A program made the translations under genes and the position numbers. From Hyphomicrobiales bacterium (GTDB lineage: Bacteria; Pseudomonadota; Alphaproteobacteria; Rhizobiales; Rhizobiaceae), in contig UBQX01000013.1 of assembly GCA_900467685.1 (NCBI GenBank), positions 62,001 through 126,000 on the forward strand: DNA of 64,000 nucleotides, written 5' to 3'. This document shows positions 1,489-62,667 of this stretch, piece after piece. The notes under the pieces are model-generated. The model had not been told where the DNA came from, made no database searches, and saw only the letters and a program-made list of their open reading frames with translations. Each line of letters begins with the position of its first letter. Positions within the stretch are counted from its first letter, which is position 1.

Positions 1489-2646
1489 TTGGAACGGCAG
1501 GAGATTATGCGGAGATTTGCCGAGGCAGCAGGCAATCCTCTTTCCTACGCCAGGGCGTGGAAGGAAAGGACGGGCCGCAAGGTCATTGGCTCATTCCCGA
1601 TGAATTTTCCCGGCGAACTTGCCCATGCGGCGGGTGCGCTGCCGATGATTTTGCAGGAGACCGATGATCCGATCACGGCCGGCCATGGCGTGCTTTTCCC
1701 GTTCTATTGCGGCTTCACCCGATCGATGGTGGACCAAGCGATGCGGGGCGAATTTGACGTGCTGGACGCCATCATGTTCGGGGATCATTGCGTTCAGCTG
1801 CTCGGGGCCGCCGACGGCATTCGCATGCATCTCACCAAGACGCGCGTCATCTTCTTCCAGCTTATTTCCTCGATGTGCGATCCCTGGACACAAGGACGCT
1901 CTGAAGAAAGCTTTGCCAAGCTTCGCGCAGAGCTTGAGGATTTCATCGGGGAAGCCGTGGCGGATGATGCCATGCATGCCTCGATCAGGCTTTTCAACCG
2001 GAACCGGGCGCTGATCCGGAAGCTCTACGACATGCGCAAGAAGGGGACCGCACCTCTCGGCGCCATCGAAATGCAGCATGTCGTCAAGTCATCCATGATC
2101 ATGGATAAGGCCGAGCATACCGATCTCCTGCAGCAACTCGTTGCCCAATTTGAAGGTGCCAAAGCCACGCCAAACCGGGCTGTTCGGCTTCATCTGTCGG
2201 GGCATTTCTGTCAGGCGCCAAAACCTGAACTCCTGGAGATGATCGAGGAATGCGGTGTCGTCGTCGTCGGAGACGATCTCTACCACGGCTTCCGCTACAT
2301 ATCGACCGACGTGCCGGAGGAAGGCCCTCCCGTTTCGGCGCTCGCTAGATGGTACATGGATCGCAATACCGGGGTTCCCTGTCCCACCCGCGTTCAAAAC
2401 AACGTCGACTGGGACGCGTACCTGCTTGACGCCATCCGCGACGAGCGCGCTGACGGCATGATCGTGCTCATGGCAAAGTTCTGCGAGCCGCACATGTATT
2501 ACTACCCTGAGGTCAAGGAAGCCTTTGAAAAGGCTGGGGTGCCGCATCTCCTCATAGAGACCGAACACGAGGGCATGGCGCTGGAAAGCCTGAAGACCCG
2601 GGTCGAGACATTCGTCGAAATCGTGAAACGCCGCGAAGCCGCCTGA
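1489..2646 (+). CDS. BcrC/HgdB-like subunit, set 1
   Basis: 385 residues of the benzoyl-CoA reductase BcrC/BadD and 2-hydroxyacyl-CoA dehydratase HgdB family. These proteins bind an Fe-S cluster and accept a low-potential electron from an ATP-driven activase, for aromatic ring reduction or for dehydration of 2-hydroxyacyl-CoA. Cysteines shared with the two paralogues lie in FYCG, DHCVQLLG, HFCQAPKPE, EECG, PCPTR and KFCEPHMYYYP. The TTG start at 1489 is chosen because GAGGGAGG sits just upstream; the next ATG is at 1507. It is followed after 16 bases by its BcrB-like partner and then the activase. Substrate is unknown, and sequence alone does not separate reductase from dehydratase. Confidence 0.85.
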   Translation: MERQEIMRRFAEAAGNPLSYARAWKERTGRKVIGSFPMNFPGELAHAAGALPMILQETDDPITAGHGVLFPFYCGFTRSMVDQAMRGEFDVLDAIMFGDHCVQLLGAADGIRMHLTKTRVIFFQLISSMCDPWTQGRSEESFAKLRAELEDFIGEAVADDAMHASIRLFNRNRALIRKLYDMRKKGTAPLGAIEMQHVVKSSMIMDKAEHTDLLQQLVAQFEGAKATPNRAVRLHLSGHFCQAPKPELLEMIEECGVVVVGDDLYHGFRYISTDVPEEGPPVSALARWYMDRNTGVPCPTRVQNNVDWDAYLLDAIRDERADGMIVLMAKFCEPHMYYYPEVKEAFEKAGVPHLLIETEHEGMALESLKTRVETFVEIVKRREAA

Positions 2647-2662
2647 GAACAGGAGAGAACCC

Positions 2663-3994
2663 ATGAACATCGCCGTACCCCCGATGGAAGACAAGAAAGC
2701 CAACAAGCTGAAGTCCACCCGCATCGCCGGCAAGCTCGTCAACGATTATTGGGAAATGGTCTGGCGGGCCAAGGAGGAAGGCAAGCTGATTTGCTGGTAC
2801 GAAGGCTCCGCCATCAATCCGTTCCTGGAAGCCGCCGATATCTGCTGGGTCCATGGCGAGGCCTACTCAGCCATGCTTGCAGCGCGCCATCAGGAAGAAA
2901 CGGCCCAGCGCGTCGCGGAAGAGCGCGGCTACATGCGCGAGCTGTGCTCCTATGCCCGCACGCATCTCGGCTGCGCCGTTTCGAACCAGCGCCTGCGCGG
3001 CGACAATTCCGGCGCGACCCCTGATGACGACGATCTGACCTGGAAACTTCCCGCGCCGGACATGATCATTTCGGCCTATGCCTACTGTTCGACAGGACAG
3101 CAATGGGACGAAATGACGAGCCGCGTTTTCGGCAAGAAGGTCCCGATCTTCAACGTGTCTCTGCCTTGGATATGGGCATCAAAGCCGGATGCGGGGTATC
3201 TCAGAGGCCATGAATGGCACGAGACCTCGGATTATGTCGCCCGCCAGCTTTACGACATGGTCAAGTTCATCGAAGAGCAGACAGGCAAGCCCTATCCCTG
3301 GGATCGTCTTCGCGCCATGATGGCCGACATCAAACGGGCATCCGAGCTGCGATTGGAAGCCATGGATCTCTGCACCGCCCAACCTGCCCCGGCAAGTTTC
3401 TTTGACTGGGTCGTTTCGATCGCACCGATCAACAATTTGCCTGTCGCCGGCGTCAAGGACTATTTCGAAACGGTGCTTGCCGAGGTGAAGCAGCGCGTCG
3501 CCAGCGGCGAAGGCGCAGTTCCGGACGAAAAATACCGTCTCTTCTTCGACGGCATCATGAACTGGAACAAGGTCGGCTGGCTGGCGAATAAATTTGCCCG
3601 CTACGACGCAGCCGTTGTTGCGGGTCGTTACACGCACATGGCCTTCTGGCAGGAGCCGGACCTGATCGACCCGAAGAACCCGGTTCTTGGCATGGCGCAG
3701 AACTATCTGATCTGCCCGAACAACCATGCCGCGCCGATCCTGATCGAGTTGATCATGGGCCTATGCCGGAAATTTCAGGTCGACGGCATGGTCATCCACG
3801 CCTCGCGAACCTGCCGCGCCTTCACCAATCCGCAATTCATGATCGCCGAAGCCGCGCAGCGCCAACTGGGCATTCCGAGCTCGATGTTCGAGGGTGATGT
3901 GACGGATGAGAGTTTCTACAAGGACGAACTGCTGAACAGCCGCGTCGAGGCCATGCTCGAGGCCATCGAATCGCGCCGCATGGCCGTTGCCTGA
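2663..3994 (+). CDS. BcrB/HgdA-like subunit, set 1
   Basis: 443 residues, close to the usual BcrB/BadE length. It is the partner of the gene just upstream and would form the catalytic heterodimer. Cysteines shared with the other two BcrB-like proteins lie in ELCSYAR, the CSTGQQWDE segment, a LICPNNH segment and SRTCRAF, and are likely Fe-S ligands. The C-terminus EGDVTDESFYKDELL is nearly identical in all three copies. AGGAGAGAACCC precedes the ATG. The co-transcribed activase at 4028 makes this the set most clearly supplied with its electron activator. Confidence 0.85.
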   Translation: MNIAVPPMEDKKANKLKSTRIAGKLVNDYWEMVWRAKEEGKLICWYEGSAINPFLEAADICWVHGEAYSAMLAARHQEETAQRVAEERGYMRELCSYARTHLGCAVSNQRLRGDNSGATPDDDDLTWKLPAPDMIISAYAYCSTGQQWDEMTSRVFGKKVPIFNVSLPWIWASKPDAGYLRGHEWHETSDYVARQLYDMVKFIEEQTGKPYPWDRLRAMMADIKRASELRLEAMDLCTAQPAPASFFDWVVSIAPINNLPVAGVKDYFETVLAEVKQRVASGEGAVPDEKYRLFFDGIMNWNKVGWLANKFARYDAAVVAGRYTHMAFWQEPDLIDPKNPVLGMAQNYLICPNNHAAPILIELIMGLCRKFQVDGMVIHASRTCRAFTNPQFMIAEAAQRQLGIPSSMFEGDVTDESFYKDELLNSRVEAMLEAIESRRMAVA

Positions 3995-4027
3995 GGCACC
4001 TGGAGATCGAGAAAAGGGAGTATGATG

Positions 4028-4993
4028 ATGAACCGCCATGTCATGGGAGTGGATTTCGGATCGACCACTGCAAAGACGGTGATCCTGGATCTCTCGGGCA
4101 ACATCGTCGCGCATTCGGTCGCCCATATGGGGGCGGTTTCCGGCGACGGCGTCAAGCAATCGATGAAGGACGCACTCGAGGAAGCGGGACTTGCTCAGTC
4201 CGACATGGGCCGCGTGGTGGCGACGGGTTACGGCCGCCGTATGCTCGATGAGGCCGACAAGAACTATACCGAAATCACCTGTCACGCCCGTGGCGCCGTT
4301 GCCATGGTGCCAGGCGCTCGCCTTGTCATCGATATCGGCGGGCAGGACAGCAAGGTGATTTCGGTGGATTCCAATGGCCTCGTCGCCCAGTTTGCTATGA
4401 ACGACCGCTGCGCGGCCGGAACGGGCAAATTTCTCGAAGTGCTTGCCCGCGCCGTCGAAATCGGCCTCGAGGAGCTTGGGGATACGGCGCTTCAGGCCAG
4501 GGAAAAACTGAAAATCTCCTCCATGTGCGCCACATTTGCAGAGACCGAAGTGATTTCCCTCCTGGCCGAGGGGCATCCCAAGACCGATGTTCTGGGGGCG
4601 GTTCACGCCGCAATCGCCATGCGGACGCTTGGACTCGTCGGGCGGGTCGGCAAGAAGGGGCCGGTCGTCATGACCGGTGGCGTCGCCAAGAACCCGGCCG
4701 CCGTTCACTACATTCAGCAGGCACTCGAAATGCCCCTGATCCTCCCGAAGACGCCACAGATCGCCGGCGCCTTGGGCGCCGCGCTGATTGGCCTCGACGA
4801 CTACCGGGCAGAAAACAAGCACCTCTTCATATCCGAGCATGAAGACATGGCCCGCGAAGAACAGATGGCTGCCGACAAGGCCTGCATTCCGGGCTGCCGC
4901 GGGGTTCCCGAGCTTGCCGTTGATCCGTTCGAAAAGCAGCCGCCCAAAGGCAAGTTGAAATCTCTGCTGGGCACGATACAAAACCACATATGA
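4028..4993 (+). CDS. ATP-dependent activase (BcrD/HgdC-like, ASKHA fold)
   Basis: About 321 residues. It would bind ATP and a [4Fe-4S] cluster at a homodimer interface and drive one electron into the BcrC/BcrB-like heterodimer. The phosphate-binding motifs are GVDFGSTTAK near the N-terminus and VIDIGGQDSK mid-protein. The two cluster cysteines are in NDRCAAGTGK and SSMCATFAETE, 39 residues apart, the spacing of HgdC of Acidaminococcus. Of three consecutive ATGs (4022, 4025, 4028) the last has the best distance from AAAGGGAG. It is the only activase in the window although there are three BcrC/BcrB-like pairs. No BcrA-type second activase subunit is present, so a homodimer like HgdC is expected. 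Confidence 0.9.
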   Translation: MNRHVMGVDFGSTTAKTVILDLSGNIVAHSVAHMGAVSGDGVKQSMKDALEEAGLAQSDMGRVVATGYGRRMLDEADKNYTEITCHARGAVAMVPGARLVIDIGGQDSKVISVDSNGLVAQFAMNDRCAAGTGKFLEVLARAVEIGLEELGDTALQAREKLKISSMCATFAETEVISLLAEGHPKTDVLGAVHAAIAMRTLGLVGRVGKKGPVVMTGGVAKNPAAVHYIQQALEMPLILPKTPQIAGALGAALIGLDDYRAENKHLFISEHEDMAREEQMAADKACIPGCRGVPELAVDPFEKQPPKGKLKSLLGTIQNHI

Positions 4994-11012: not shown

Positions 11013-12668
11013 CTATGCGATTTTCGAGTGGCGTTCGGGACGCACCCATTCGACCGGCGTGAGTCTGCCTTCGCTGTACCATTCCAGAAGCACGTTTTTC
11101 TGGATCTTGCCGGTCGCTGTGAGCGGAAAGGAGTGCACGAAGAACCAGTGTTCAGGGGTCTTCTGCGGCGAAAGATTTGCCCGGCAATAATGCCACAGCT
11201 CGTCCGGGGCGGGCGGATTTTCCTTGTCATTCGCGAGAATGACCGCACCGACCGTTTCACCCCAAACATCGTCGGGAAGACCAATGACGGCCACCTGCGA
11301 GATCGCTTCATGCTGGAAGAGGATATTTTCGATTTCCGAAGGATAGAGGTTCATGCCGCCGCGGATGATCATTTCCTTCAGTCTGCCGGTAATGCGGAAA
11401 TAGCCATCCTCGTCCATCGTGCCGAGATCGCCGGTGCGCAGCCAGCCGTCTTCGGTGAGCGCAGCGCGGGTGGCGTCGGGCTGAGCGAAATATTCCTTCA
11501 TGGTGTTGAAGCCACGTACCCACCATTCACCGATCGTATTGACCGGGACGGTCTCAAGCGTTTGCACATCGACGACCTTGACCTCCACATGCTCGATCGG
11601 TCGCCCGATGGTCTGGGCCTGCAATTCGTCGCTGTCGCTGGTGAAGGTCTCCAGGAACGGGCCATTCGATTCCGTTTGGCCGTACATGATCGCGAAATCC
11701 GTTCCGAATTCTGCTTTCGCGCGTTTGACCAGGGCTTCGGGCACTGTCGCGGCGCCCGACAGGATGGAGTTGAAAGAGGAAAGATCGCGTGTCTTTGCGT
11801 CTGGATGGTTCAGCAGCGCCAGGATCATCGTCGGCACGATGAGGGAGCAGTTGACCTTCTCCGCCTCGATCAACTCAAGGAAAAGAGCCGGGTCGAAGGC
11901 TTGCATCAGCACGAAGGTGCCCTGACGCGCGAATGTACCGATTTCCGAAACGACGGCACCACCGATATGGAACATCGGCATTGTGTTCAGCCAGATTCCT
12001 CCCATTGGAAAATCAGCGCGTTCGACGATCATATTGGCGGCATTGATGACGCCACGATGGTGCAGGCAAGCCCCTTTCGGAAAGCCTGTCGTACCGGACG
12101 TATACTGGATCTGGATCATGTCGGTGGGATTGAGCTTCGGGAGATCGAGCCCCGGATCGCCTTCAGCCTTCAGCTTGTCCAGGTCGGCGACATTGATCGC
12201 CACCTTGAGGTGGTCGAGCTTGCTCTGCAGCTCCTTCACGATGGCCGCGAGATCCTTGCCTCGGGATTCGTTCGCGTAGACGACGCCGGCAGCTCCGGCA
12301 TTCTCGAGAATGTAGGAGATCTCTCGCGCGGTGAATGCGGGATTGATGGGAACGAGAATGAGACCGGCAAAGCTCATTCCATGCTGAAATATCACCCATT
12401 CGGGCGTCTCGGGGGCCAGGAGGCCGATCCGATCGCCAGGCTTGAAGTGTTTGAGCAGCCCGCGGGCACAGGCCTGCGCATCCTCGACGAGCTGCCGATA
12501 GGTCCAGCGCCGGCGTTTCGACGGATCGGCGACGCCCTCGACCAAGGCAAGCCGGTCCGGCGCTTCCCGGGCGTTCTTCAGCATGAGATCGCCGAGCGTG
12601 CTTTCGATCAGCGGCTTGGTTTCATATTTTGGAAAATAGCTTTCGGTAAACTTCTGCTGTGCGGTCAT
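11013..12668 (-). CDS. Acyl-CoA synthetase (AMP-forming)
   Basis: 551 residues of the class I adenylate-forming family. P-loop YTSGTTGFPKG near residue 189, GWLRTGDLGTMDEDGYF, the hinge GRLKEMIIRGGMNLYP, and the C-terminal lysine in ATGKIQK. Activates a carboxylic acid to its CoA ester through an acyl-adenylate. AAGGAGGATCAG sets the start at 12668; the longer frame is rejected. It is the third gene of a leftward operon with two atypical SDRs. Confidence 0.85.
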   Translation of the reverse strand: MTAQQKFTESYFPKYETKPLIESTLGDLMLKNAREAPDRLALVEGVADPSKRRRWTYRQLVEDAQACARGLLKHFKPGDRIGLLAPETPEWVIFQHGMSFAGLILVPINPAFTAREISYILENAGAAGVVYANESRGKDLAAIVKELQSKLDHLKVAINVADLDKLKAEGDPGLDLPKLNPTDMIQIQYTSGTTGFPKGACLHHRGVINAANMIVERADFPMGGIWLNTMPMFHIGGAVVSEIGTFARQGTFVLMQAFDPALFLELIEAEKVNCSLIVPTMILALLNHPDAKTRDLSSFNSILSGAATVPEALVKRAKAEFGTDFAIMYGQTESNGPFLETFTSDSDELQAQTIGRPIEHVEVKVVDVQTLETVPVNTIGEWWVRGFNTMKEYFAQPDATRAALTEDGWLRTGDLGTMDEDGYFRITGRLKEMIIRGGMNLYPSEIENILFQHEAISQVAVIGLPDDVWGETVGAVILANDKENPPAPDELWHYCRANLSPQKTPEHWFFVHSFPLTATGKIQKNVLLEWYSEGRLTPVEWVRPERHSKIA

Positions 12669-12736
12669 CTGATCCTCCTTCAGATCGCCGGAGCGCCCTC
12701 CCGCCGCCGGCCGGTATTTGGCCAAGTCTTCGAATT

Positions 12737-13606
12737 CTATCGCCTCTTCAACACCTCCGGCGTCACCGCTCGGTGGAAGCCATTGAATTCCGGAATGTTT
12801 TTCGCCTCGTATTCACGGGTCCAGGTCTGTCTGCGGTTCGGAGCGCCGCCGTCGACACGCAGGCAGGTGCCGGTGATATAGGCTGCGGCCGGCGACAGCA
12901 GGTAGACGATGGCAGCCGATATTTCCGCTTCAGTTCCATAGCGTGGCAGCGGCACTTTCTCCGCATATTCCAGCAGCCTCTCGGTGATTTCGGGCGGATA
13001 GGTATCGAAGCCGGAAGACGCTATTCCGCCGGGCGCGACCGAGTTGACGCGGACGCCGGAATGCGCCCATTCGCATGCCGCCGTTTCCGTCAAGGTCAGC
13101 ATTCCGCCGCGTGCCGCCCCCGAATGGGCAAATTCCGGCCAGCCGTTCCAGATGTCGGCAATGATATTGACGATCGCGCCGCCATGCTCCTCCATCCACC
13201 GCGTGTAGGCCTCGCGCATGAAGATGAAGCCGCCGGTCAGGTTGTTGCGGACAACCGCCTCGAAGCCTTTTGTCGAAATCGACTTCATCTCCGTGCGGTA
13301 TTGACCGCCGGCATTGTTGACGAGACCGTGAATTGCGCCGAACTGAGCGATGGTCCGGTCGACGACCGAAACCACCTGTTCTTCGTCGCGAATGTCGCAC
13401 GTCATCGCCACGACCTTGCCGCCATCTTCGGTGATTTCGCCGACGACTTTCTCAAGCTTTTCCGGATTGCGCCCGACAATGACGACGTTGGCGCCAAGGC
13501 TCGCAAGTTCGTGAGCGGTGCAACGCCCCAGTCCGGAGCCGCCGCCGGTCACGATGATCGTTTTCTCTTCGAAAAGCGCCGGCGCAAAAACGGAATTGTA
13601 TCCCAT
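12737..13606 (-). CDS. PECR-like SDR, putative trans-2-enoyl-CoA reductase
   Basis: 289 residues. The NADPH-binding motif TGGGSGLG and the NNAG motif are present. The Tyr-x-x-x-Lys catalytic pair is replaced by HSGAAR (residues 161-166), with Ser at the Tyr and Arg at the Lys position. This HSGAAR signature, with WA.SG(V/I)R(V/I)N.VAPG after it, is that of mammalian peroxisomal trans-2-enoyl-CoA reductase (PECR) and its DECR relatives. I therefore infer reduction of a C=C bond in an enoyl-CoA rather than a ketone/alcohol conversion. Middle gene of a three-gene leftward operon, nine bases from the preceding gene. Confidence 0.72.
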   Translation of the reverse strand: MGYNSVFAPALFEEKTIIVTGGGSGLGRCTAHELASLGANVVIVGRNPEKLEKVVGEITEDGGKVVAMTCDIRDEEQVVSVVDRTIAQFGAIHGLVNNAGGQYRTEMKSISTKGFEAVVRNNLTGGFIFMREAYTRWMEEHGGAIVNIIADIWNGWPEFAHSGAARGGMLTLTETAACEWAHSGVRVNSVAPGGIASSGFDTYPPEITERLLEYAEKVPLPRYGTEAEISAAIVYLLSPAAAYITGTCLRVDGGAPNRRQTWTREYEAKNIPEFNGFHRAVTPEVLKRR

Positions 13607-13615: not shown

Positions 13616-14416
13616 TCACGCTGCTGAAATGCCGCCGTTCAGGCTGATGGCCTGACCGGAAAGCTTTGCTGACGCCGGGCTGGCAAGAAAGGCGATCAGT
13701 TCCGCCATGTCTTCCGCATTCACGACGCCGAGTTGGGCCATCTGCTTGGCCTTGGCGAACAGCTTGCCTGAAAACTCACCGCCCATGACGGTGTCGTGCG
13801 TCATGGTCCCCTCGATGATGGAAGGCGTCACGCAATTCACCCGAATGCCGGATCGTTTCGCCTCGTTTGCGAGGCCACGGGAAAACATGATGATTGCCGC
13901 CATCAGGCCGCCGATCAAGGATTCACCCGGCGTCGCGATCTTTCCGGCATCCGATGCGATATTGATGATGGAGCCGTTTTCGCGGGCGCGCATGCCATCC
14001 ATCACGACGCGGCACATCAGAAAATGTGACATGACCTGCGTGAGCACCATGCCCTGAATGTCGTGAATGTCGATCTTGTGGAAGAGCGAGGGGTACGGAT
14101 AGGCACTCACCGTGGAGTTGACAAGCACATCGACGCCGCCCATCAGTTCCTCGGCCCTGCCCCCCACCTCGATGGCCTGCTCGGTCATGCAGCAGTCGCC
14201 TGCGAGAAAATTCACCTGGCAATGGGGGTATTCTTGCAGAATCGAGGCTTTGGCCTTCTCACCCCGCTCCTTGTTGCGCCCATTGATCGTCACGTGTGGA
14301 GCGCCCAACGAGGCAAGTTTTCTCGCTGTTGCAAGGCCGACACCCGACGTGCCCCCTGTCACGAGCACGCGCGCTTCTTCAAGCTTAAAGGGCCTCCTCT
14401 CAGGCACTTCGGACAT
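13616..14416 (-). CDS. SDR-fold protein lacking the catalytic Tyr and Lys
   Basis: 266 residues. The cofactor motif TGGTSGVG is intact. The active-site segment aligns without gaps to that of BadH (N-I-A-S-D-A...), keeping Ser155 but with Ile168 where Tyr and Met172 where Lys should be. The NNAG motif is also changed (VNSTV). It is thus a BadH-like paralogue that has lost the standard proton-relay residues: either a binding or regulatory subunit or an enzyme with different chemistry. First gene of its operon; a perfect operator lies 36 bases upstream. Confidence 0.75.
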   Translation of the reverse strand: MSEVPERRPFKLEEARVLVTGGTSGVGLATARKLASLGAPHVTINGRNKERGEKAKASILQEYPHCQVNFLAGDCCMTEQAIEVGGRAEELMGGVDVLVNSTVSAYPYPSLFHKIDIHDIQGMVLTQVMSHFLMCRVVMDGMRARENGSIINIASDAGKIATPGESLIGGLMAAIIMFSRGLANEAKRSGIRVNCVTPSIIEGTMTHDTVMGGEFSGKLFAKAKQMAQLGVVNAEDMAELIAFLASPASAKLSGQAISLNGGISAA

Positions 14417-14512: not shown

Positions 14513-15871
14513 TCAGGCAGCCCGCCGCTTTGCATCCATGGACTCGATCATCGCCTCGAGGCGGATGTTCAAAAGCTCGTCCTTGTAGAAGCTCTCGTCC
14601 GCCACATCGCCTTCGAAGAACATCGACTGGCGGCCATATTTCTTGGCGGAGTCGGCGATCAGAAATTGCGAATTTGTCATGCCCCGGCAGGTTCTCGAAG
14701 CATGGCATACGACACCGTCGATGTCGAACTTGTCGCACAGCTTCTCGATTTCGCCGATCATGATCGGCGCTCCGTGGTTATTGGGGCAGATCAGATAGTT
14801 CTGCGCCATGCCCAGAATCGGATCGCCGAGGTCAATGAGCTGCGGCTCCTGCCAGAAGGACATATGGGTGTAGCGCCCCGCCACCACGCAGGCATCGACG
14901 GCCGCGAACTTTTCGGCGAGCCAGCCGACCTTGTTCCAGTTCATCATTCCGTCAAAGAAGAGCCGGTATTTCTCGTTCGGCACGGCCCCCTGCCCGGCCT
15001 TCACCCGCTCAGCAATCTCGGCCTTCACCCCTTCGAAATAAGTGACAAGGTTCTGGTCGCCGGGCAGGAAATTGACGGGTGCAATCGAAACGATCCAGTC
15101 GAAGAAGCTGGCGGGCGAGGGATGCACCTGGCACATATCCATCGCCTCCAGCCGCAGCTCGGCCGCCTTCTTGACATAGGTCATCGTCTCACCGAGGCGG
15201 TCGTAGTCGTATTTCCGGCCTGTATGTTCGGCAAGGAACCTCGTGAGCTCAAGCAGTTGCTCGGCCACATATTTCGACCGCTGTTCCCATTCCTCGCCTT
15301 GCATGTAGCCTGCGTCAGGACGGCCGCCCCACAAAAGCGGGATCTGGATGGTGAACATCGGAACTTTCTTGCCGAAGTTCCGGTAGGTGATGTCGTCCCA
15401 CTGCTGGCCGGAGGAACAATAGGGATAGGCATTCACGATCATGTCGGGCGCAGGCAATTTCAGCATGGTCTCGAGGCGCGGATCGTCAGGGTCCATGCCG
15501 TGATCGCCCGACCTGACCCGATCCAGTTCGATCAGCATCTGGCCAATATGGGTCCGGGCATAGGAGCAAAGCTCGCGGTCGTAACCGTATTGTTCACCGC
15601 GCGCCTGGGCGCCAATCTCGCGGTGCCGTGCCGCCAGCATCGCCGCCCAGGCTTCTCCATGCACCCAGACGAGGTCATGGGCATGAAAGAAAGGCGGAAT
15701 GTAAGTTCCGTTATACCAGACGACCTTCTTGCCGGCCTCCTTGGCGCGGAACACGCTTTCCCAATATTCCGAGACCAGCTTGCCGCCGAACTTTGTGGAT
15801 TTCAGCTTGTTTGCCTTTGGCCCGCCGGCGGATATGATTTTCGAGTTGGGCATTTCGCTTACCGTTTCCAT
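14513..15871 (-). CDS. BcrB/HgdA-like subunit, set 2
   Basis: 452 residues, same architecture as the set 1 protein: ELCSYARTHIG, CSSGQQWDD, LICPNNHGAP and SRTCRGM cysteine segments and the C-terminal EGDVADESFYKDELL. Set 2 lacks some cysteines found in set 1 (LVWVHGEAW where set 1 has DICWVHGEA). Starts 13 bases after its BcrC-like partner; AGGAGTGGACA precedes the ATG. No activase is next to this set, so it presumably uses the one at 4028. Confidence 0.85.
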   Translation of the reverse strand: METVSEMPNSKIISAGGPKANKLKSTKFGGKLVSEYWESVFRAKEAGKKVVWYNGTYIPPFFHAHDLVWVHGEAWAAMLAARHREIGAQARGEQYGYDRELCSYARTHIGQMLIELDRVRSGDHGMDPDDPRLETMLKLPAPDMIVNAYPYCSSGQQWDDITYRNFGKKVPMFTIQIPLLWGGRPDAGYMQGEEWEQRSKYVAEQLLELTRFLAEHTGRKYDYDRLGETMTYVKKAAELRLEAMDMCQVHPSPASFFDWIVSIAPVNFLPGDQNLVTYFEGVKAEIAERVKAGQGAVPNEKYRLFFDGMMNWNKVGWLAEKFAAVDACVVAGRYTHMSFWQEPQLIDLGDPILGMAQNYLICPNNHGAPIMIGEIEKLCDKFDIDGVVCHASRTCRGMTNSQFLIADSAKKYGRQSMFFEGDVADESFYKDELLNIRLEAMIESMDAKRRAA

Positions 15872-18863: not shown

Positions 18864-18892
18864 GAGTACCTTCCCCCTCCAACCCAAATTAT

Positions 18893-21085: not shown

Positions 21086-21134
21086 AGCCTTTGCGACTTC
21101 ACCGGATCGGGGGTCTTGAGAGCGTCGCGTGACC

Positions 21135-22900: not shown

Positions 22901-22953
22901 TTTCCTCTCCTTGCAGCGCTCTTTTTTTGAATTTCTAGATCGTATGTTGCGGT

Positions 22954-24129: not shown

Positions 24130-24138
24130 GTGCTCCTC

Positions 24139-25463: not shown

Positions 25464-25474
25464 CAGCTATCTCC

Positions 25475-38309: not shown

Positions 38310-38353
38310 GCGTCTTTCACCTCCCGCACAGCAATTTCGTTCGCAAGATGATA

Positions 38354-38367: not shown

Positions 38368-38402
38368 TAACGCAAGGGAAACGTCGCCGCCGACATATTT
38401 TC

Positions 38403-38416
38403 GTACTCTTGCGTAC
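38403..38416. promoter_or_regulatory. Regional operator variant, GTACTCTTGCGTAC
   Basis: One mismatch from GTAnnCTAGnnTAC. 66 bases upstream of the reductase start at 38483, in the divergent promoter region. Confidence 0.6.
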
Positions 38417-38482
38417 AATACGTTAGACAATCATATCGGATTTGCGATAACCTGTCGGCGCAGACAAGGGAGGCCGGCAAGC

Positions 38483-50273: not shown

Positions 50274-50340
50274 ACTATGAGGGCATGGCTGCCGGGAGGA
50301 TTTGGCGGCTCTGCAATGAAAGCCACGGATGGAGGTGACC

Positions 50341-51978
50341 ATGGCGAGCGATTTCGATTTTGCGGCCCACGCCAGCGCCATGCGCCAGCAGGGCTGGTGG
50401 CAGGACAAGACCCTCGACGACCTCCTGGAAGCCGCCATCGCTCGCGATCCCGACAAAAAGGCGATCATCGCCTATCGGAAAGACAACGGGTTCGACAGGC
50501 CGCTCAAGATCATGACCTATGCGGCGCTGGGCGAGGCGGTCGCCAAGGCCGCCGGCGCGTTTCGTGCGATGGGGATCGGCCGCGGCGACGTGGTCGCGAT
50601 CATGCTTCCCAACTGGTGGGAATTCGTCGTTTCGGCGCTTGCACTGGGGCGGATCGGAGCTGTTCCCAATCCGTTGATGCATATCTTCCGCGAGCGGGAA
50701 CTGCGCTTCATGCTCGGCTTTGCCGACACCAAGGCGATCATCATACCCAGGCTGTTTCGTGGCCACGATTTCGAAGCCATGCTTGACGGACTGAAGCCGG
50801 ACTTGCCGAAGCTCGACCACATCATCGTCGTTGACGGCGCTCCGAACCGTTCCTTCGAAAATCTCGTCATGAATTCTGCGGCCGCGCCCGTGAGTGCCTC
50901 TGAGGGCACGCCCCCGGCAACCGACGAAATGGCGGTGCTGATGTACACATCCGGCACCACCGGCGAGCCGAAGGGCGTCATGCATTGTTTCAATACGCTG
51001 ATTGCGTGCACCGACGCCTTGGGCAAGCGTTTCAAGCTCACATATGACGACGTGCATTTTGGCTCGACGCCCTTCGGGCACATGACCGGCTATGCAGCTG
51101 TCATGATCCAGGCGCTCTACTATGGCGGGACGATGGTGCTCGTCGACATCTGGGAGCCGGCGGCCTGCGTGCCGGCCATGGTGCGCGAAGGCGTCACGCA
51201 TATGGCGGCGGCGACGCCTTTCCTCGCCGATATCTGCAACGCCGTCTCGGACGGCGCCGAGGCGCCAAAACTCACGACATTCCTTTGCGGCGGCGCGCAA
51301 ATTCCGCCGGTCGTCATCGAAAATGCAAAGCAAAAGCTCAATCTCGATGTCAGTTCGCTATGGGGCATGACCGAAAGCTTGGCCGGCTCCCTGACCGAGC
51401 CTGAACGGGCGGCGGAAAAATCCGCGACAACAGACGGGCGCGCGGTGGACGGCGTGGAAATCCTGATTGCCGACGAGAATCTCAACCCGATGGCCACAGG
51501 TGATACCGGGCGTCTCTATTTCCGCGGTTCCCAGCAGTTCATCGGCTATTACAAGAGGCCCGGTCTCGACGGGCGCGGCGCGGAAGGCTGGTTCGATACC
51601 GGCGACCTCGCCTATATGGACAAGGATGGCTACATCCGCATCGATGGCCGCACGAAAGATATTGTCATTCGCGGCGGCGAGAACATTCCGGTCGTCGAAA
51701 TCGAATCCATTCTCTACCGCCATCCAAACGTCACCGATGCAGCGATCGTTGGTTATCCCGACAGCCGTATGGGCGAGCGCGGATGCGCATTCGTCGTTCT
51801 GAAGGAAGGCTGCAGCCTGACGATGGACGATCTGCGTGAATGGATGACGAAAAGCGGTGCGGCCAAGCAATACTGGCCGGAGGCATTGGAAGTCATTGAC
51901 CGGATGCCCCGTACCGCATCGGGCAAGATCCAGAAATTCCTGCTCAAGGATCAGGCGTTGAAACATGTCGAGGCATAA
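50341..51978 (+). CDS. Acyl-CoA synthetase of the AliA/FadK type
   Basis: 545 residues. P-loop YTSGTTGEPKGV, GWFDTGDLAYMDKDGY, GRTKDIVIRGGENIP and C-terminal TASGKIQKF. The N-terminal MRQQGWWQDKTLDDLL and the overall layout resemble E. coli FadK and R. palustris AliA (cyclohexanecarboxylate-CoA ligase). With badHI in the window, cyclohexanecarboxylate is a reasonable guess; a 4-hydroxy acid is the alternative, given the next two genes. GGAGGTGACC precedes ATG 50341. Confidence 0.83.
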   Translation: MASDFDFAAHASAMRQQGWWQDKTLDDLLEAAIARDPDKKAIIAYRKDNGFDRPLKIMTYAALGEAVAKAAGAFRAMGIGRGDVVAIMLPNWWEFVVSALALGRIGAVPNPLMHIFRERELRFMLGFADTKAIIIPRLFRGHDFEAMLDGLKPDLPKLDHIIVVDGAPNRSFENLVMNSAAAPVSASEGTPPATDEMAVLMYTSGTTGEPKGVMHCFNTLIACTDALGKRFKLTYDDVHFGSTPFGHMTGYAAVMIQALYYGGTMVLVDIWEPAACVPAMVREGVTHMAAATPFLADICNAVSDGAEAPKLTTFLCGGAQIPPVVIENAKQKLNLDVSSLWGMTESLAGSLTEPERAAEKSATTDGRAVDGVEILIADENLNPMATGDTGRLYFRGSQQFIGYYKRPGLDGRGAEGWFDTGDLAYMDKDGYIRIDGRTKDIVIRGGENIPVVEIESILYRHPNVTDAAIVGYPDSRMGERGCAFVVLKEGCSLTMDDLREWMTKSGAAKQYWPEALEVIDRMPRTASGKIQKFLLKDQALKHVEA

Positions 51979-55894: not shown

Positions 55895-56668
55895 TTATAT
55901 TCCGTAGAACTTTGCCGGTCGCTTTTCGATGAACGCCTGCATGCCCTCTTTCTGGTCATGCGTGCCAAAAAGACTGTGAAACAGCCGGCGCTCAAACAGC
56001 AGTCCTTCCTTGAGCGAGCCTTCCTCGGCCCGCGAAACCGCCTCCCGGACAAGCCGCGCGGCCGGACGCGAATAGGATGCAATCTCCGCAGCCGCTTCCA
56101 TCGCGGTCGACAGGACCTTGTCGTCGGGCACAACCCGGGCGACAAGCCCGGCAGAAAGCGCCTCGGCCGCTCCCATCATTCGGCCGGTCAGGTGCATGTC
56201 CATGGCTTTCGCGCGTCCGATGAGCTTCGTCATGCGCTGGGTGCCACCGATGCCGGCGATGACTCCAAGCTTGATTTCCGGCTGCCCGAAGCGAGCGCCC
56301 TCCCCCGCTATGGCGAAGTCGCACATCATCATGAGCTCGCATCCGCCGCCAAGCGCATAGCCGTTGACGGCTGCGATTTTCGGCGTCCGCGCCGCGGCAA
56401 AGCGCTCCCACTCTCCGAAATAATCGAGCTCGGACATCTGCGCCGCGCTCATCCCGGCCATTTCGGCGATGTCGGCGCCGGCGGCAAAGGCGCGTTCGGA
56501 GCCCGTGAGCACCAAGCATCCGACCGAACTGTCGCGATCGAGGGCTTCGGTGGCCTCGATCAGTTCGGCGGCCAAGGCAATGTTCAATGCATTGAGCTGC
56601 TTTGGCCTGTTAAGGCGGATGAGCGCCACACGCCCTTCACGCTGGATATCGACAAGCTCTCCCATCAC
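55895..56668 (-). CDS. Enoyl-CoA hydratase
   Basis: 257 residues. Both catalytic Glu residues are present (GGGCELMMMCD and FGQPEIKLGVIAGIGGTQR). As the fourth gene of the isobutyryl-CoA module it probably hydrates methacrylyl-CoA to 3-hydroxyisobutyryl-CoA. Overlaps mmsB by four bases. Confidence 0.85.
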   Translation of the reverse strand: MMGELVDIQREGRVALIRLNRPKQLNALNIALAAELIEATEALDRDSSVGCLVLTGSERAFAAGADIAEMAGMSAAQMSELDYFGEWERFAAARTPKIAAVNGYALGGGCELMMMCDFAIAGEGARFGQPEIKLGVIAGIGGTQRMTKLIGRAKAMDMHLTGRMMGAAEALSAGLVARVVPDDKVLSTAMEAAAEIASYSRPAARLVREAVSRAEEGSLKEGLLFERRLFHSLFGTHDQKEGMQAFIEKRPAKFYGI

Positions 56669-57534
56669 GCCCGGCTCCGCTTTTCAAAGCGTGGCAACAT
56701 GGCAGAGAAATCGCGTCCGCGCCCGTCCTCGGTTTCCACGAAGCGCTGATAGAGTTCCTGGGCGAGTTGTCCCATTGGTGTATCTGCATTCGCAGCCGTG
56801 GCCGCCATCTGGCTCAAATTCAGATCCTTGAGCATCAGCTCTGCGGCAAACCCCGGCTTGTATCCATTGTCGGCCGGCGATTTGGGACCGACGCCCGGCG
56901 CCGGGCAATAGGCGTTCATGGACCAGGAATAGCCCGAGGAGGTGGAGACCACGTCGAACATCTTCTGCCGGTCAAGGCCGAGCTTGTCGGCCAGTGCAAA
57001 GGCCTCGCACGTTGCGATCATAGTCACCCCCAGGATCATGTTGTTGCAGATCTTGGCAGCCTGACCATTTCCCGACGGGCCACACAGAACCGCCTTCTGG
57101 CCCATGATGTCAAAGAGCGGTTTGACCGTTTCGAATGCGTCTTCGTCGCCGCCTGCCATGAAGGTGAGCGTACCGGCCTGGGCACCGCCGATGCCGCCGG
57201 AAACGGGCGCATCGAGAGCCTTGAGACCAGCGGCATGCGCCTGCTCGGCCACGGCACGGGCGCTGTCGACATCGACTGTCGAGCAATCGAGAAAAATGGC
57301 GCCCTTTGGCAATACGGGGATGATTTCCGCGGCAACCTTGCGAAGGATTTCGCCATTCGGCAACATTGTGATCGCCACGTCGGCGTTTGCGCAGGCCTCG
57401 GCGGCCGTTGACGCCATTTTCACGCCCCCAGGCTTTGCCATGACATCAAATCCGGTTACGTCGTGTCCGGCGGCAATCAGGTTCGTCGCCATCGGCGCAC
57501 CCATGTTGCCAAGCCCTATGAATGCTATTCTCAT
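56665..57534 (-). CDS. mmsB: 3-hydroxyisobutyrate dehydrogenase
   Basis: 289 residues. N-terminal FIGLGNMGAPMA dinucleotide motif, FLDCSTVD, DAPVSGGIGGAQAGTL and the active-site Lys in KICNNMILGV. Oxidises 3-hydroxyisobutyrate to methylmalonate semialdehyde in valine degradation. GGAGGAATTCGC fixes ATG 57534; it overlaps the upstream stop as ATGA. No methylmalonate-semialdehyde dehydrogenase (mmsA) is in the window. Confidence 0.88.
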   Translation of the reverse strand: MRIAFIGLGNMGAPMATNLIAAGHDVTGFDVMAKPGGVKMASTAAEACANADVAITMLPNGEILRKVAAEIIPVLPKGAIFLDCSTVDVDSARAVAEQAHAAGLKALDAPVSGGIGGAQAGTLTFMAGGDEDAFETVKPLFDIMGQKAVLCGPSGNGQAAKICNNMILGVTMIATCEAFALADKLGLDRQKMFDVVSTSSGYSWSMNAYCPAPGVGPKSPADNGYKPGFAAELMLKDLNLSQMAATAANADTPMGQLAQELYQRFVETEDGRGRDFSAMLPRFEKRSRA

Positions 57535-58577
57535 GCGAATTCCTCCTTCATTGACCATTCAAGATCGCCCAGTGGCGCCAGCATGTGGGCAACGGCGGCG
57601 GCAGGCACCCCGTCGGCAATCTTATGCATCCATTTCGGATTGCGGTCCTTGTCGATGATCTGCGCGAGGACGCCTTCCAGCAAATCGCCGCCGGCCTGCA
57701 CGCGATGGGTGAACCGGTACTCCTGCGCAAGAGCTGCCTCGATGTCATTGAAGCCGCGCGCCCGGCGAACCAGTTCCAGGGTGCATGCCATGGACAGGGG
57801 TGAATTGCGCTGAACCGCGTCCCGAGCCTTTTGGCAGGCTTCGGTATCCGCACCATCGAGCGCTCGAACGATGTCCCTGAGCGCGTGGCCCGAAAAAATG
57901 CGGTCGATTTCCGCGGCCTCAGCGGCGAGCGGCGCGTCTCCGGCATCTCCCACCGCAGCCGAAAGGCTGGCCGGGTTGCCGCTGGCTTCCAGGCCGGAAA
58001 TCAAACCCGGCCATTCTTCTTCGGGAATGAACATGTCGGCAAAGCCGGCGTAAATTGCGTCTGCGGCACCCATCCGTGCCCCTGTCAGCCCAAGATATTC
58101 ACCAAGCCGTCCGGGCGAATGCGCCAGAAGTAGGGTGCCGCCGACATCGGGAATGAGCCCTATGCTGGCTTCCGGCATCGCGATCTGGGTGGAACGTCCC
58201 ACGACCCTGTAGGCGGCGTGGCAACCGACGCCGACGCCCCCGCCCATGGTAAAGCCCTGCATGAAAGCGACAACCGGTTTTGGATATCGCGCAATCTTGG
58301 CATTCATGCGGTATTCCTGACGCCAGAAAGCCCGGGCGAATTCTTCATCGTCTGCGACGCCGTGATGATAGATGTCCGCGATGTCGCCGCCGGCGCAAAA
58401 GGCCCGTTCACCCTCCGCGTCTATGACCACGACGTCCACCGCGCCTTCATGCTCCCAGCCGTCGAGCGCTGCCTCGATCTCCAGAGACATTGCCGGCGAA
58501 AGGGCATTCAGGACCTTCGGCCGCGTCAGCGTGATACGTCCGGCCCGCCCGGATTTGCGGATCTCGACATCCTTCAT
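57531..58577 (-). CDS. 3-hydroxyisobutyryl-CoA hydrolase
   Basis: 348 residues, the long crotonase form typical of HIBYL-CoA hydrolase. ERAFCAGGDIADIY, MGGGVGVGCHA and MPEASIGLIPDVGGTLLL. Releases 3-hydroxyisobutyrate for the next enzyme. Overlaps its neighbours on both sides by four bases. Confidence 0.87.
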   Translation of the reverse strand: MKDVEIRKSGRAGRITLTRPKVLNALSPAMSLEIEAALDGWEHEGAVDVVVIDAEGERAFCAGGDIADIYHHGVADDEEFARAFWRQEYRMNAKIARYPKPVVAFMQGFTMGGGVGVGCHAAYRVVGRSTQIAMPEASIGLIPDVGGTLLLAHSPGRLGEYLGLTGARMGAADAIYAGFADMFIPEEEWPGLISGLEASGNPASLSAAVGDAGDAPLAAEAAEIDRIFSGHALRDIVRALDGADTEACQKARDAVQRNSPLSMACTLELVRRARGFNDIEAALAQEYRFTHRVQAGGDLLEGVLAQIIDKDRNPKWMHKIADGVPAAAVAHMLAPLGDLEWSMKEEFA

Positions 58578-59719
58578 CGACGCTCCCCGACCAACTGACG
58601 CGCCACGATGAGGCGCATGATTTCATTCGTTCCTTCCAGAATCTGGTGAACACGCAGGTCACGAACGATCTTTTCGATCCCGTAATCGGCGAGATATCCG
58701 TAGCCGCCATGCAATTGCAGGCAATTGTCTGCGATTGAAGATCCGGCTTCCGTCACGAACTTCTTTGCCATGGCGCAGAATTTCGTGGCGTCCGGCGCAC
58801 CGGTATCGAGCTTCCACGCCGCCTGCCGCAGGAAGGTCCGCGCCGCCTGCAACTCGATTTCCATGTCTGCGAGGCGGAACTGCAGCGCCTGGAACTGGTC
58901 GATCGTCTGACCGAAAGCCTTGCGCTCGCTCATATAGGTGAGTGTGGCGTCAAGTGCGGCCTGCGCTGCACCCAGCGAACAGGCGGCAATGTTCAACCGC
59001 CCGCCATCCAGACCCGCCATGGCATATTTGAAGCCCTGGCCTTCCTGACCGACAAGATTGGCCGCCGGCACTACACAATCGTCGAACTGCACCTGACGGG
59101 TCGGCTGGCTTCGCCAACCCATCTTGTCCTCGAGCCCGCCGAAGGAGAGCCCCGCGGTCTCGGTTTCCACGACGACCGTCGAAATGCCGCGCGGACCATC
59201 ATCGCCCGTGCGCACCATCACGACATAGGCATCCGAATACCCCCCGCCTGAAATGAACGCCTTCGTGCCATTGAGGCGATAACCCTGGCCGTCGCTTGCC
59301 GCCCGGGTCTTCAGGGCTGCCGCATCGGACCCCGAGCCCGGTTCGGTCAGGCAGTAGGAAAGAACGGCATCCATGGACACCGCCGCCGGGAGGAAGCGTT
59401 CGCGCAACTCGGCGCTGCCGAACTTGTCGATCATGCCGGCGCACATGTTGTGGATCGACAGGAACGAGGCGACCGAGGCGCAGGACATCGACAGGGCCTC
59501 GAAAACCAGCGTGGCATCGAGCCGTGACAGCCCCGAACCGCCCGATTCCTCGCGCACATAAAGACCGCCGAAACCCAACTCTCCCAATTTGGGCCAGAGT
59601 TCTTTGGGTATCTCGCCTGCCCTTTCCCATTCGCGCGCATATGGCGCGACGAATTGCTCACCAAAGGACCGGGCCATCTCGAAAATGGCCTCCTGTTCCT
59701 CCGTCAGTGCGAAGTCCAT
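58574..59719 (-). CDS. Isobutyryl-CoA dehydrogenase (ACAD8-like)
   Basis: 381 residues starting MDFALTEEQEAIF. CLTEPGSGSDAAALKT, GFKYAMAGLDGGRLNIAACS and the base motif LEGTNEIMR with Glu are those of ACAD8-type isobutyryl-CoA dehydrogenase. First gene of the four-gene valine module. GGAAGGGAGCGAC fixes the start; the longer frame upstream is rejected. Confidence 0.87.
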   Translation of the reverse strand: MDFALTEEQEAIFEMARSFGEQFVAPYAREWERAGEIPKELWPKLGELGFGGLYVREESGGSGLSRLDATLVFEALSMSCASVASFLSIHNMCAGMIDKFGSAELRERFLPAAVSMDAVLSYCLTEPGSGSDAAALKTRAASDGQGYRLNGTKAFISGGGYSDAYVVMVRTGDDGPRGISTVVVETETAGLSFGGLEDKMGWRSQPTRQVQFDDCVVPAANLVGQEGQGFKYAMAGLDGGRLNIAACSLGAAQAALDATLTYMSERKAFGQTIDQFQALQFRLADMEIELQAARTFLRQAAWKLDTGAPDATKFCAMAKKFVTEAGSSIADNCLQLHGGYGYLADYGIEKIVRDLRVHQILEGTNEIMRLIVARQLVGERR

Positions 59720-59783
59720 GGTCGCTCCCTTCCGGATTTCAATTCCAAACCCCGATGGAGCGTTTATGCTACACAGGCATATG

Positions 59784-59797
59784 ATACGCAAGTGTAT
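59784..59797. promoter_or_regulatory. Regional operator variant, ATACGCAAGTGTAT
   Basis: A symmetrical 14-mer with A/T-changed ends and CAAG for CTAG. 64 bases upstream of the isobutyryl-CoA dehydrogenase start. Confidence 0.4.
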
Positions 59798-60007
59798 TAT
59801 TATTGACTGCCGCGGGCGAGCAGAGACATAAGGATTGTGGCTGTGATGCTCGAAGGGCAAAGGAGCGTCCGCCGAATGAGCCGACGTGAGCGCGTTTAAT
59901 GAGTTATTCTCACTTATCGCCTTGCGCTGGAGTTTCACATTTTGTCGCGGTCGCGCGCCCAATGTCGGTTGACATATATCTATAAATGATGAAGTTTCGA
60001 ATAATTG

Positions 60008-60021
60008 GTATGCTAGCTTTC
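60008..60021. promoter_or_regulatory. Regional operator, GTATGCTAGCTTTC
   Basis: One mismatch from GTAnnCTAGnnTAC; shares GTATGCTAGC with 14453-14462. 73 bases upstream of the set 3 BcrC-like start. Confidence 0.6.
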
Positions 60022-60094
60022 TATATTCTGGAAAGTTCACGCATACAAATTCCGACAATATATGAAGTCAAACTCACCGTCCCGGAGGAGGCAG

Positions 60095-61276: not shown

Positions 61277-61296
61277 ATCCAATCAAGGAGCACGAC

Positions 61297-62667
61297 ATGT
61301 CTGCCACCATGGAACAAGCAAAGCCCGGTCAAGGACACCAGCGGACCGCTCCGCTTGCCAACCGTCTGATGAGCACCCGCAGCGGCGGGAAAATGGTCAA
61401 GGATTACTGGGACAACCTCTTTTCCGCCCGCGAACGCGGCGCGAAAGTGGTTTGGTACAACGGCGCGGCGATCAATCCGATCCTGCAGGCCGCCGGCGTG
61501 GAATGGTGTCACGGCGAGGCCTTCGGCGCGCGTCTCGCCGCCATGCATCTCGAGGCGCCGGCGCAATATGCCAGCGAATCCTACGGCTACATCAATGAAT
61601 TATGTTCCTATGCCAGAACCACGCTTGGCTGTGCCTTGCTGACCAAACAGGAGATGGCCGACAAGGTGGAGATGGACAATACCCCCGGCATTCCCAGCAA
61701 GGAAGTTCTGGCAAGCCGCCTGCCGGCGCCCGACCTTTTCGTAAATGCCTATGCCGGCTGCTCGACGGGCCAGCAGTGGGACGAAATCTCCTACCGGATG
61801 TTCAACAAGGAACTGCCGTTCTTCAAGGTCTCCTATCCGCTTCTATGGGGCAACAAGCCGGATGCGGGCTACCTGCGCGGCGAAGAATGGGAGGCGGCGT
61901 CGCGCTATGTCGCCAATCAGTTGCACAAACTGATCGAGTTTCTGGAACATGAAACGGGCCGCCCCTTCGACTGGGAAGGGCTCCGTGAATCCATGTACTA
62001 TATCAAGCGCGCCAGCGAACTTCGCATGGACGCTCTCAATCTCTGCAAGTCCAAACCTGCGCCCGCGGTGTTCTGGGACTGGGTTGCGAGCATCGCGCCG
62101 ATCAACTTCCTGCCGGGCAACCAGGCGCTTGTGGATTATTTCGCGGAAGTGAAGACCGAAATTAAAGAACGGCTTGCGGCGGGTGTTGCGGCTCTTCCAG
62201 GCGAGCGTTATCGGCTTGCTTTCGACGGTATTATGAACTGGAACAGGGTCGGCTGGCTGGCCAACAAGTTCGCCGAGCACGATGCAGCCGTCGTCTGCGG
62301 CCGCTATACCCATAATTCCTTCTGGCACGAGCCGCAGCTCATCGATCCCGACGACCCGATCCTCGGCATGGCGCAGCACTATCTTCTCTGCCCGTTCAAT
62401 CACAGCACGAAAAATCTGGCTGAAATGATCCTAAGGGATTGCGAGACCTACGGCATTGACGGCATCGTCTTCCATGCAACCCGCACTTGCCGATCGGCCA
62501 GCAACGGTCAGCTGCTTCTGGCGCAAATGGCGCAGAAGAAGGGACTGCAGACGATGTTCTTCGAGGGCGACGTCGCCGATGAGAGCTTTTACAAGGACGA
62601 GGTGCTGCAGAGCCGCCTGGAGGCGATGCTGGAAACAATCGATGTTCAGCGCAATCGGTCGGCATAG
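61297..62667 (+). CDS. BcrB/HgdA-like subunit, set 3
   Basis: 456 residues. ELCSYARTTLGC, CSTGQQWDE, the LLCPFNHS segment and TRTCRSAS cysteines, ending EGDVADESFYKDEVL. Partner of the gene 20 bases upstream; AAGGAGCACGAC precedes the ATG. Same gene order (C then B) as sets 1 and 2, indicating duplication of a two-gene unit. Confidence 0.85.
   Translation: MSATMEQAKPGQGHQRTAPLANRLMSTRSGGKMVKDYWDNLFSARERGAKVVWYNGAAINPILQAAGVEWCHGEAFGARLAAMHLEAPAQYASESYGYINELCSYARTTLGCALLTKQEMADKVEMDNTPGIPSKEVLASRLPAPDLFVNAYAGCSTGQQWDEISYRMFNKELPFFKVSYPLLWGNKPDAGYLRGEEWEAASRYVANQLHKLIEFLEHETGRPFDWEGLRESMYYIKRASELRMDALNLCKSKPAPAVFWDWVASIAPINFLPGNQALVDYFAEVKTEIKERLAAGVAALPGERYRLAFDGIMNWNRVGWLANKFAEHDAAVVCGRYTHNSFWHEPQLIDPDDPILGMAQHYLLCPFNHSTKNLAEMILRDCETYGIDGIVFHATRTCRSASNGQLLLAQMAQKKGLQTMFFEGDVADESFYKDEVLQSRLEAMLETIDVQRNRSA

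Follow-up and report, generated by a model that had tools for sequence, protein, structure and literature searches.

Three subunit pairs and a single activase gene

The 64-kb window analysed here (the whole stretch of 64,000 bases, G000:C20:62001-126000) comes from a Hyphomicrobiales genome of 5.05 Mb in 43 contigs that is 99.99% complete, and it carries three two-gene units related to the benzoyl-CoA reductases (BCRs) and 2-hydroxyacyl-CoA dehydratases (HADs), together with one gene for an ATP-dependent activase. In all three units a small, HadC/BcrC-like subunit is followed by a large, HadB/BcrB-like one. Pair 1 consists of C1 (1489..2646, plus strand; 385 aa, TTG start as listed) and the catalytic subunit B1 (2663..3994, plus), pair 2 of C2 (15885..17042, minus) and B2 (14513..15871, minus), and pair 3 of C3 (60062..61276, plus) and B3 (61297..62667, plus). 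Each protein contains a single HGD-D domain (PF06050; E 4e-73 to 6e-50), with scores of 247, 210 and 216 bits for C1–C3 and 179, 171 and 177 bits for B1–B3, all over the cut-off, and these six genes are the only PF06050 matches in the whole genome. The three small subunits are 47–54% identical to each other and the three large ones 55–61%. The preliminary description of this DNA had reported three units with the same subunit order, which holds, as do its coordinates for units 1 and 3; the span it gave for unit 2 (15885-14513) covers the large gene alone, the true unit being 17042-14513, and its starts for the activase (4028 rather than 4022) and pair 3 (60095 rather than 60062) differ by choice of start codon alone.

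The activase gene (4022..4993, plus) lies directly 3' of pair 1, after a gap of 27 bases. Its product scores 255.6 bits with TIGR00241 (cut-off 125.4), as the only protein to exceed that cut-off in the whole genome, and is also over the cut-off of PF01869. The latter is exceeded at two more places, neither of which we accept as a second activase: C4:24017-24760 is a frame read as N-acetylglucosamine-kinase-like, adjoining GntR-like and MurQ-like frames, and C9:9324-9530 is a partial match over 77 positions, at 31.6 bits against a cut-off of 31.5. A short partial PF01869 match on contig C34 was likewise rejected. The activase, described as lone from the window, is thus lone in the genome, and no dedicated activase for the other pairs turned up elsewhere. 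Since none of 60 relatives of the host (including 5 of its genus) has a match near the window's 892–909 bits, with only three distant ones at 27–107 bits, the island looks horizontally acquired.

A separate branch of the superfamily

All six proteins match the HAD, BCR and DCCP models, yet none reaches any equivalog cut-off. The HadB/HadC models (NF052455/NF052456) give 106–180 bits against cut-offs of 750/700, although they were built for one substrate and a score below the cut-off does not exclude another HAD; the BCR models (TIGR02260/TIGR02263, TIGR03190/TIGR03191) give 66–169 bits against 421–487, and the DCCP model NF040772 43–144 bits against 350. For five of the proteins the top NCBIfam model is nevertheless HadB or HadC (C1 with HadC, 180 bits against 700), and for C3 it is BcrC. 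As a positive control, TIGR02260 finds BcrB over the cut-off in 14 of 385 Alphaproteobacteria at 774–862 bits, compared to 92–99 bits for the three large subunits of the window, so the initial reading of these proteins as BCR subunits is not supported.

Among solved chains HadB/HadC score highest (184.9 and 114.4 bits), followed by BzdO/BzdN and MbdO/MbdN, with DCCP lowest (77 and 50 bits). Folds were predicted from alignments of 52 large subunits (49 and the three of the window) and 34 activases (33 and that of the window). The AlphaFold model of B1 (predicted local distance difference test score, pLDDT, 86.0; predicted template-modelling score, pTM, 0.87) matches HadB with a TM-score on target of 0.88–0.89, MbdO with 0.81–0.83 and BzdO with 0.79–0.81.

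Relatives were collected from one genome per species, and 80 of 92 confirmed stretches were kept, giving 73 loci. They supplied 77 small subunits (80 found, one duplicate and two fragments dropped), 80 large subunits (81 found, one duplicate dropped; the set includes a 342-aa piece besides the full version of its gene) and 59 activases (61 found, one duplicate and one short sequence dropped). Large subunits 78–92% identical to that of pair 1 (type 1) occur in Mesorhizobium, Mesobacterium, Paracoccus lichenicola, Gemmobacter and Burkholderiales metagenome-assembled genomes (MAGs), Rhodobacteraceae QY30 and Novosphingobium, and large-subunit relatives 53–60% identical in many Actinobacteria and in Zhongshania. 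Trees were built with 14 BcrB/BcrC, HadBC, BzdNO, MbdNO and DCCP as references; the 83 large subunits fall into a single group (SH-aLRT support 98), as do the 80 small ones (99), apart from BcrBC/MbdNO, HadBC and BzdNO. These are quick trees with very long reference branches, and we draw on them to judge how separate the pairs are and which types they form, leaving the sister group aside. The window pairs sort into three types in both trees, and every type has proteobacterial orthologs. The preliminary description had considered that the pairs might cluster with proven dehydratases only, which is not what these trees show, as HadBC, the sole proven dehydratase included and itself on a very long branch, is outside the clade in both trees. 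Judged by sequence, the pairs belong to the BCR/HAD superfamily but stand apart from its characterised branches. All seven genes are under purifying selection (non-synonymous to synonymous ratio, pN/pS, of 0.08–0.34 in 21 comparisons with the nearest relatives).

Cluster ligands and type-specific residues

Cys95, Cys142, Cys384, Glu66 and Tyr97 of the large subunit are kept in every relative covering them. In BzdO, according to PMC11971306, the catalytic [4Fe-4S]-OH2 cluster is held by Cys95, Cys128 and Cys380, with Glu65 next to it and Tyr97 as the residue that binds the thioester. In the small subunit C74, C101 and C332 are found in every sequence, C298 in 77/77 and C241 in 76/77. C241 is common to BcrC (14/14) and MbdN, while C298 is common to HadC, BzdN and DCCP and absent from BcrC/MbdN, and in no reference do the two occur together. 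The Cys at 265 of BzdN/DCCP is replaced by Tyr/Phe/Tyr in the window, that at 77 of BzdN by Thr/Asn/Thr, and Cys300 of DCCP is also missing. A double cubane of the BzdN/DCCP pattern was rejected because these required cysteines are missing; the six-Cys [8Fe-9S] set of the BZD-type small subunit is not present, and another cluster arrangement with C241 and C298 would be compatible with the residues found.

Fixed columns that differ between the three types make up 35 of 420 in the large subunit, and 18 of them fall within the 106 columns of the catalytic segments (Fisher p 0.0008, with segments picked after the alignment had been seen and with no account taken of relatedness). These type-specific residues near the active site make it plausible that the pairs are substrate-specific modules.

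Pair-to-activase ratios in relatives

Large subunits were counted with profile A2, and activases as matches above the TIGR00241 cut-off, in 50 of the estimated 60 genomes behind the 73 loci (excluded were L046, L052, L057, L062, L066, L070, L077, L079, L080 and L081). Pairs equal activases in all 31 genomes of Actinomycetota (23 with 1:1 and 8 with 2:2). The 19 Pseudomonadota show 3:1 in 6, 2:1 in 5, equal numbers in 5 and no activase in 3, where counts from MAGs may be low. The 3:1 genomes are those of P. lichenicola, QY30 and N. colocasiae and the Gemmobacter, Burkholderiales and Rhodoferax MAGs, with the window as a seventh case; the 2:1 genomes are three Mesorhizobium (one a MAG), Mesobacterium pallidum and P. 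solventivorans. The three-to-one layout is real and recurrent, and because 3:1 and 2:1 sets make up 6 and 5 of the 19 proteobacterial relatives, one activase per several pairs is a recurrent proteobacterial arrangement.

Activases 70–72% identical to that of the window stand beside lone pairs of type 1 (L021, a MAG), type 2 (L027, a MAG) and type 3 (L072, an isolate). Since orthologous activases thus accompany each type on its own, sharing of one activase among the three pairs, as the preliminary description had proposed for its three paralogous modules, is supported by genomics. In Paracoccus solventivorans the sole activase follows pair 3, not pair 1 (L059 vs L025), and the contig of P. alkenifer stops at the corresponding place. 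In QY30 the island is plasmid-borne: the unannotated 124-kb plasmid CP023455.1 (L017, L026, L048) combines three pairs with one activase gene, a BadI-like gene (88.6% identity) and a thiolase gene (78.8%), and its record states no function.

The activase and its C-terminal tail

The activase core is 42–43% identical to HadI, HgdC and MbdQ, and its model matches them with a TM-score on target of 0.91–0.94. The cluster cysteines C130 and C169, two per monomer, are kept in 59/59 relatives. Behind the core there is a tail of ~45–75 residues in which Cys288 is found in 59/59 and Cys292 in 58/59 relatives, spaced as C-x2-C in 44/59 and as C-x3-C in 15/59 carriers with the window counted in. The five solved activase chains (243–276 residues) are without such a tail, and no tail motif follows the core in the 27 BcrA/BcrD-type rows that were read. 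A homodimer would have two tails and hence four thiols on offer. Residues 288–295 of the model have a pLDDT <50. The conserved C-x2/3-C(-x-G) at residues 275–294, seen in relatives at L011–L083, could serve as a metal site, a shield or a redox switch. Of 384 further Alphaproteobacteria, 16 have a match over the TIGR00241 cut-off, 13 of them BcrA-like (most with a second, BcrD-like one) and three being frames of ~1400 codons; in these three (L124, L125, L126) two activase domains are followed by a Cys-rich C-x2-C segment in a larger domain. A quick activase tree with long reference branches was not used for conclusions.

Catabolic context of the island

A CaiB-type CoA-transferase gene (106..1296, minus), of a kind that often adjoins type-1 pairs elsewhere, is divergent from pair 1. 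The gene run of pair 2 includes an AMP-dependent acyl-CoA ligase (11013..12725, minus), a 2,4-dienoyl-CoA-reductase-like short-chain dehydrogenase/reductase (SDR; 12737..13606, minus; PRK07677, 198 bits vs 318) and a further SDR adjoining the pair (13616..14416, minus), with another such ligase upstream of the pair (17196..18887, minus). Because relatives of the adjoining SDR are found in 59/73 loci and those of the first ligase in 51/73, the core set is ligase, pair, activase and SDR.

The block at 20318..31095 resembles the monoterpene island of Castellaniella in a comparison with Table 1 of PMC4109377. It comprises tyrosine-phosphatase-like (by reading), MaoC, SDR, acyl-CoA dehydrogenase, CitE-like, thiolase, synthase III/OB-fold, BadH-like (28243-29007; 331 bits, cut-off 431), BadI-like (29015-29890; 415.5 bits, cut-off 467.6) and CoA-transferase genes. 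Further along are a DECR1-like 2,4-dienoyl-CoA reductase (38348..39364, plus), whose best solved match is the mitochondrial 2,4-dienoyl-CoA reductase at 178 bits, and an AliA-like ligase (50329..51978, plus; TIGR03208, 614.6 bits, under the cyclohexanecarboxylate-CoA ligase cut-off of 792.3). The co-occurrence with badH/badI and a DECR1-like reductase noted earlier therefore stands for the reductase, while badH and badI are present as genes under the equivalog cut-offs. Valine-type genes for 3-hydroxyisobutyrate dehydrogenase (TIGR01692, 365 vs 292 bits), 3-hydroxyisobutyryl-CoA hydrolase (PRK05617, 375 vs 274 bits) and an acyl-CoA dehydrogenase lie at 56665..60058 (minus), the first two over their cut-offs. 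The route proposed for 4-isopropenylpimelyl-CoA in Castellaniella has methacrylyl-CoA and valine-like degradation at its end (PMC4109377). As the neighbours resemble its cyclic-monoterpene ring-cleavage set together with valine degradation, the substrate is likely to be a substituted cyclohexane or aromatic ring acid.

Proposed mechanism and alternatives

We consider it rather probable that the window is part of a catabolic island whose three paralogous [4Fe-4S] heterodimers depend for charging on a single ATP-dependent activase, of the homodimer type and encoded with pair 1; this estimate is tempered by the ten genomes outside the count and by the MAG origin of two of the three lone-type cases. 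A ring-bearing acid would be turned into its CoA ester by an AMP-ligase or the CaiB transferase, and a reduced ferredoxin-like donor, for which no gene was found in the window, would reduce the bridging cluster of the activase. ATP hydrolysis would then push an electron first into the small-subunit cluster and from there to the catalytic one next to Glu66 and Tyr97 in the large subunit, where the acyl-CoA would react through a radical. The product would be taken on by SDR, dienoyl-CoA-reductase-like, BadH/BadI-like and beta-oxidation enzymes, with each pair probably having its own acyl-CoA or its own step. We infer the physical sharing, the homodimer, the electron path, the ring-acid substrate and the reaction type.

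With regard to the last, we lean, at not quite an even call, towards HAD-like elimination on the acyl-CoA with a recycled priming electron, because HadB/HadC rank first among the solved chains and are the top NCBIfam models for five proteins out of six, there is a single activase gene and a CaiB gene is adjacent. A CaiB gene is also adjacent in had/fld clusters. A reductive, BCR-like reaction appears somewhat less probable, and a reaction of another kind would be rather unexpected. In HADs one activated electron is recycled and serves many turnovers, while class I BCRs need ATP for each electron (PMC11971306, PMC8473912 and PMC11574389), and the HAD mode makes a single activase for several enzymes more readily understandable.

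The pairs could instead be ATP-dependent, class I BCR-like ring reductases for substituted aroyl-CoAs such as 4-isopropylbenzoyl-CoA, charged by a homodimeric activase and followed by DECR-like SDRs and BadH/BadI-like enzymes. The ligases and the genes for these enzymes are indeed nearby, Glu66 and Tyr97 correspond to BzdO Glu65 and Tyr97, C241 is shared with BcrC and MbdN, and C3 matches BcrC best. However, the TIGR02260 scores are far from those of true BcrB, the genome has no second activase, C298 is foreign to BcrC/MbdN, and both the Lys of the C-x4-K-W motif and the BzdN-type Cys265 are missing in the window, which leaves ring reduction by such enzymes a serious possibility but a doubtful one. 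The activase gene is directly behind pair 1, so its product might be used by this pair only, with pairs 2 and 3 relying on another electron source or working at other times; this is improbable in view of the recurring 3:1 and 2:1 sets, the orthologous activases found with solitary pairs of type 2 or type 3, and the preservation of all cluster Cys in pairs 2 and 3 under purifying selection. A single activase gene is found also in DCCP:DCCP-R, and C298 is common with DCCP, but we give very little credence to double-cubane-type reductases of small molecules, since the pairs are heterodimeric, lack Cys at 265 and 300, score lowest with DCCP among solved relatives and are linked to acyl-CoA ligases and SDRs.

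Several observations weigh against the proposal of three catabolic heterodimers charged by one activase. The Lys of C-x4-K-W, invariant in HadB, BzdO, MbdO and 14/14 BcrB, is Gln in 80/80 relatives and the three window proteins, and position 299 is Pro in all those references and Met in the clade; the active site of the clade is, by these residues, remodelled, and given the missing Lys its chemistry may differ from that of HadB, BzdO, MbdO and BcrB alike. The fold search with B1 ranks HadB first by TM-score but BzdO first by E-value. The three activase-less proteobacterial relatives of the 19 are two MAGs with 1:0 and P. alkenifer with 2:0, the second pair of the latter being ~200 bases from the contig end, where P. 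solventivorans carries its activase. BadI-like genes occur in the fetched flanks of 14/42 actinobacterial and 0/30 proteobacterial loci, so the linkage to ring cleavage is not general, and it is weak in the actinobacteria as well, since of five BadI-like proteins tested four are under both BadI and MenB cut-offs with PRK07396 (MenB) the better match in all four, and that of L082 is over the MenB cut-offs. A motif scan of the 64-kb window revealed no low-potential donor gene; the one ferredoxin motif match is antisense inside the BadH-like gene and was taken as chance. Genes for 2-oxoacid:ferredoxin oxidoreductases (PF01558) are found in the host and 21/24 other genomes, as well as in 11/14 controls, so that 3/25 searched genomes are without one.

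Enzymes of this type are known from anaerobic life. Carriers of the present branch with an activase include Rhodococcus, Nocardia, Gordonia, Amycolatopsis, Sphingopyxis, Mesorhizobium and Paracoccus, and several of these genera are aerobes. Should the branch work in such hosts, then chemistry of this kind can be protected from oxygen, or else a low-oxygen catabolism of these bacteria is being missed. More tentatively, and on the unlikely side in our opinion, the pairs and their activase may represent a third class of ATP-dependent radical enzyme within the BCR/HAD superfamily, one at work in bacteria that live with oxygen. One activase would then prime three heterodimers for different acyl-CoAs, and its C-x2/3-C tail would shield the exposed bridging cluster, bind metal at a second, shared site or sense oxygen. 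The contrast between 1:1 or 2:2 sets in Actinobacteria and 3:1 or 2:1 sets in many Proteobacteria makes activase promiscuity directly testable.

Comparison with known systems and further observations

The best solved sequence relatives, HadBC with HadI (PDB 3o3m, 4eht), likewise form a heterodimer of homologous subunits with three Cys and a Glu in the large one and have a single activase gene, but the window pairs differ from them in the Gln for Lys exchange and the extra Cys241, and the window activase in its tail. Class I BCRs (BcrCBAD, BzdNOPQ, MbdONPQ; PDB 8s02, 9g87, 9gai) have the same fold, three cluster Cys and Glu next to the catalytic cluster; they use two different activase subunits (PMC11971306), MbdP and MbdQ in Mbd, in contrast to one in the window genome, where the BzdN Cys265 is also lacking. 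DCCP with DCCP-R (PDB 6eno, 7yyl) belongs to the same superfamily and has a single activase gene, but DCCP is a homodimer of one gene (same source) with six cluster Cys, while each unit of the window has two genes and no Cys265 or Cys300.

A literature search, with most subscription papers outside its reach, found no characterised three-module, one-activase system, in line with the preliminary description, which knew of none. Searches on Rhodococcus with 2-hydroxyglutaryl- or 2-hydroxyacyl-CoA dehydratase found nothing, and neither did those on QY30 with this system, where matches for the name were on other subjects by title. The mrc island of Castellaniella defragrans has the same kinds of ring-cleavage and beta-oxidation genes and a valine-like end, but Table 1 of PMC4109377 names no HAD/BCR-type gene or activase, and the Rhodococcus naphthenic-acid cluster has badI/badH/aliA/aliB-like genes with no such pair in the table of PMC5906575. 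Rhodococcus ruber, Azoarcus sp. KH32C and Sphingopyxis macrogoltabida each carry a single pair with a single activase over the stretch that was read, annotated by NCBI as '2-hydroxyacyl-CoA dehydratase family protein' for the pairs, in records that state no function. The 1:1 unit of Azoarcus sp. KH32C, on pAZKH (NC_020548.1, 343639-384949; L108), is near a synthase III/thiolase/CoA-transferase block like that of the window, and the MrcD/MrcE homologs of this strain are the nearest listed to those of Castellaniella.

Two minor features of the window lie apart from the pairs. A gene for a beta-keto acid cleavage enzyme (BKACE; PF05853, 348 bits) at 33493-34602 (minus) adjoins that of a MarR-type regulator (by reading), and at 53089-55000 (plus) APH-type phosphotransferase-family and nitroreductase-family genes are found within a run of acyl-CoA genes, with relatives of the phosphotransferase at other loci too.

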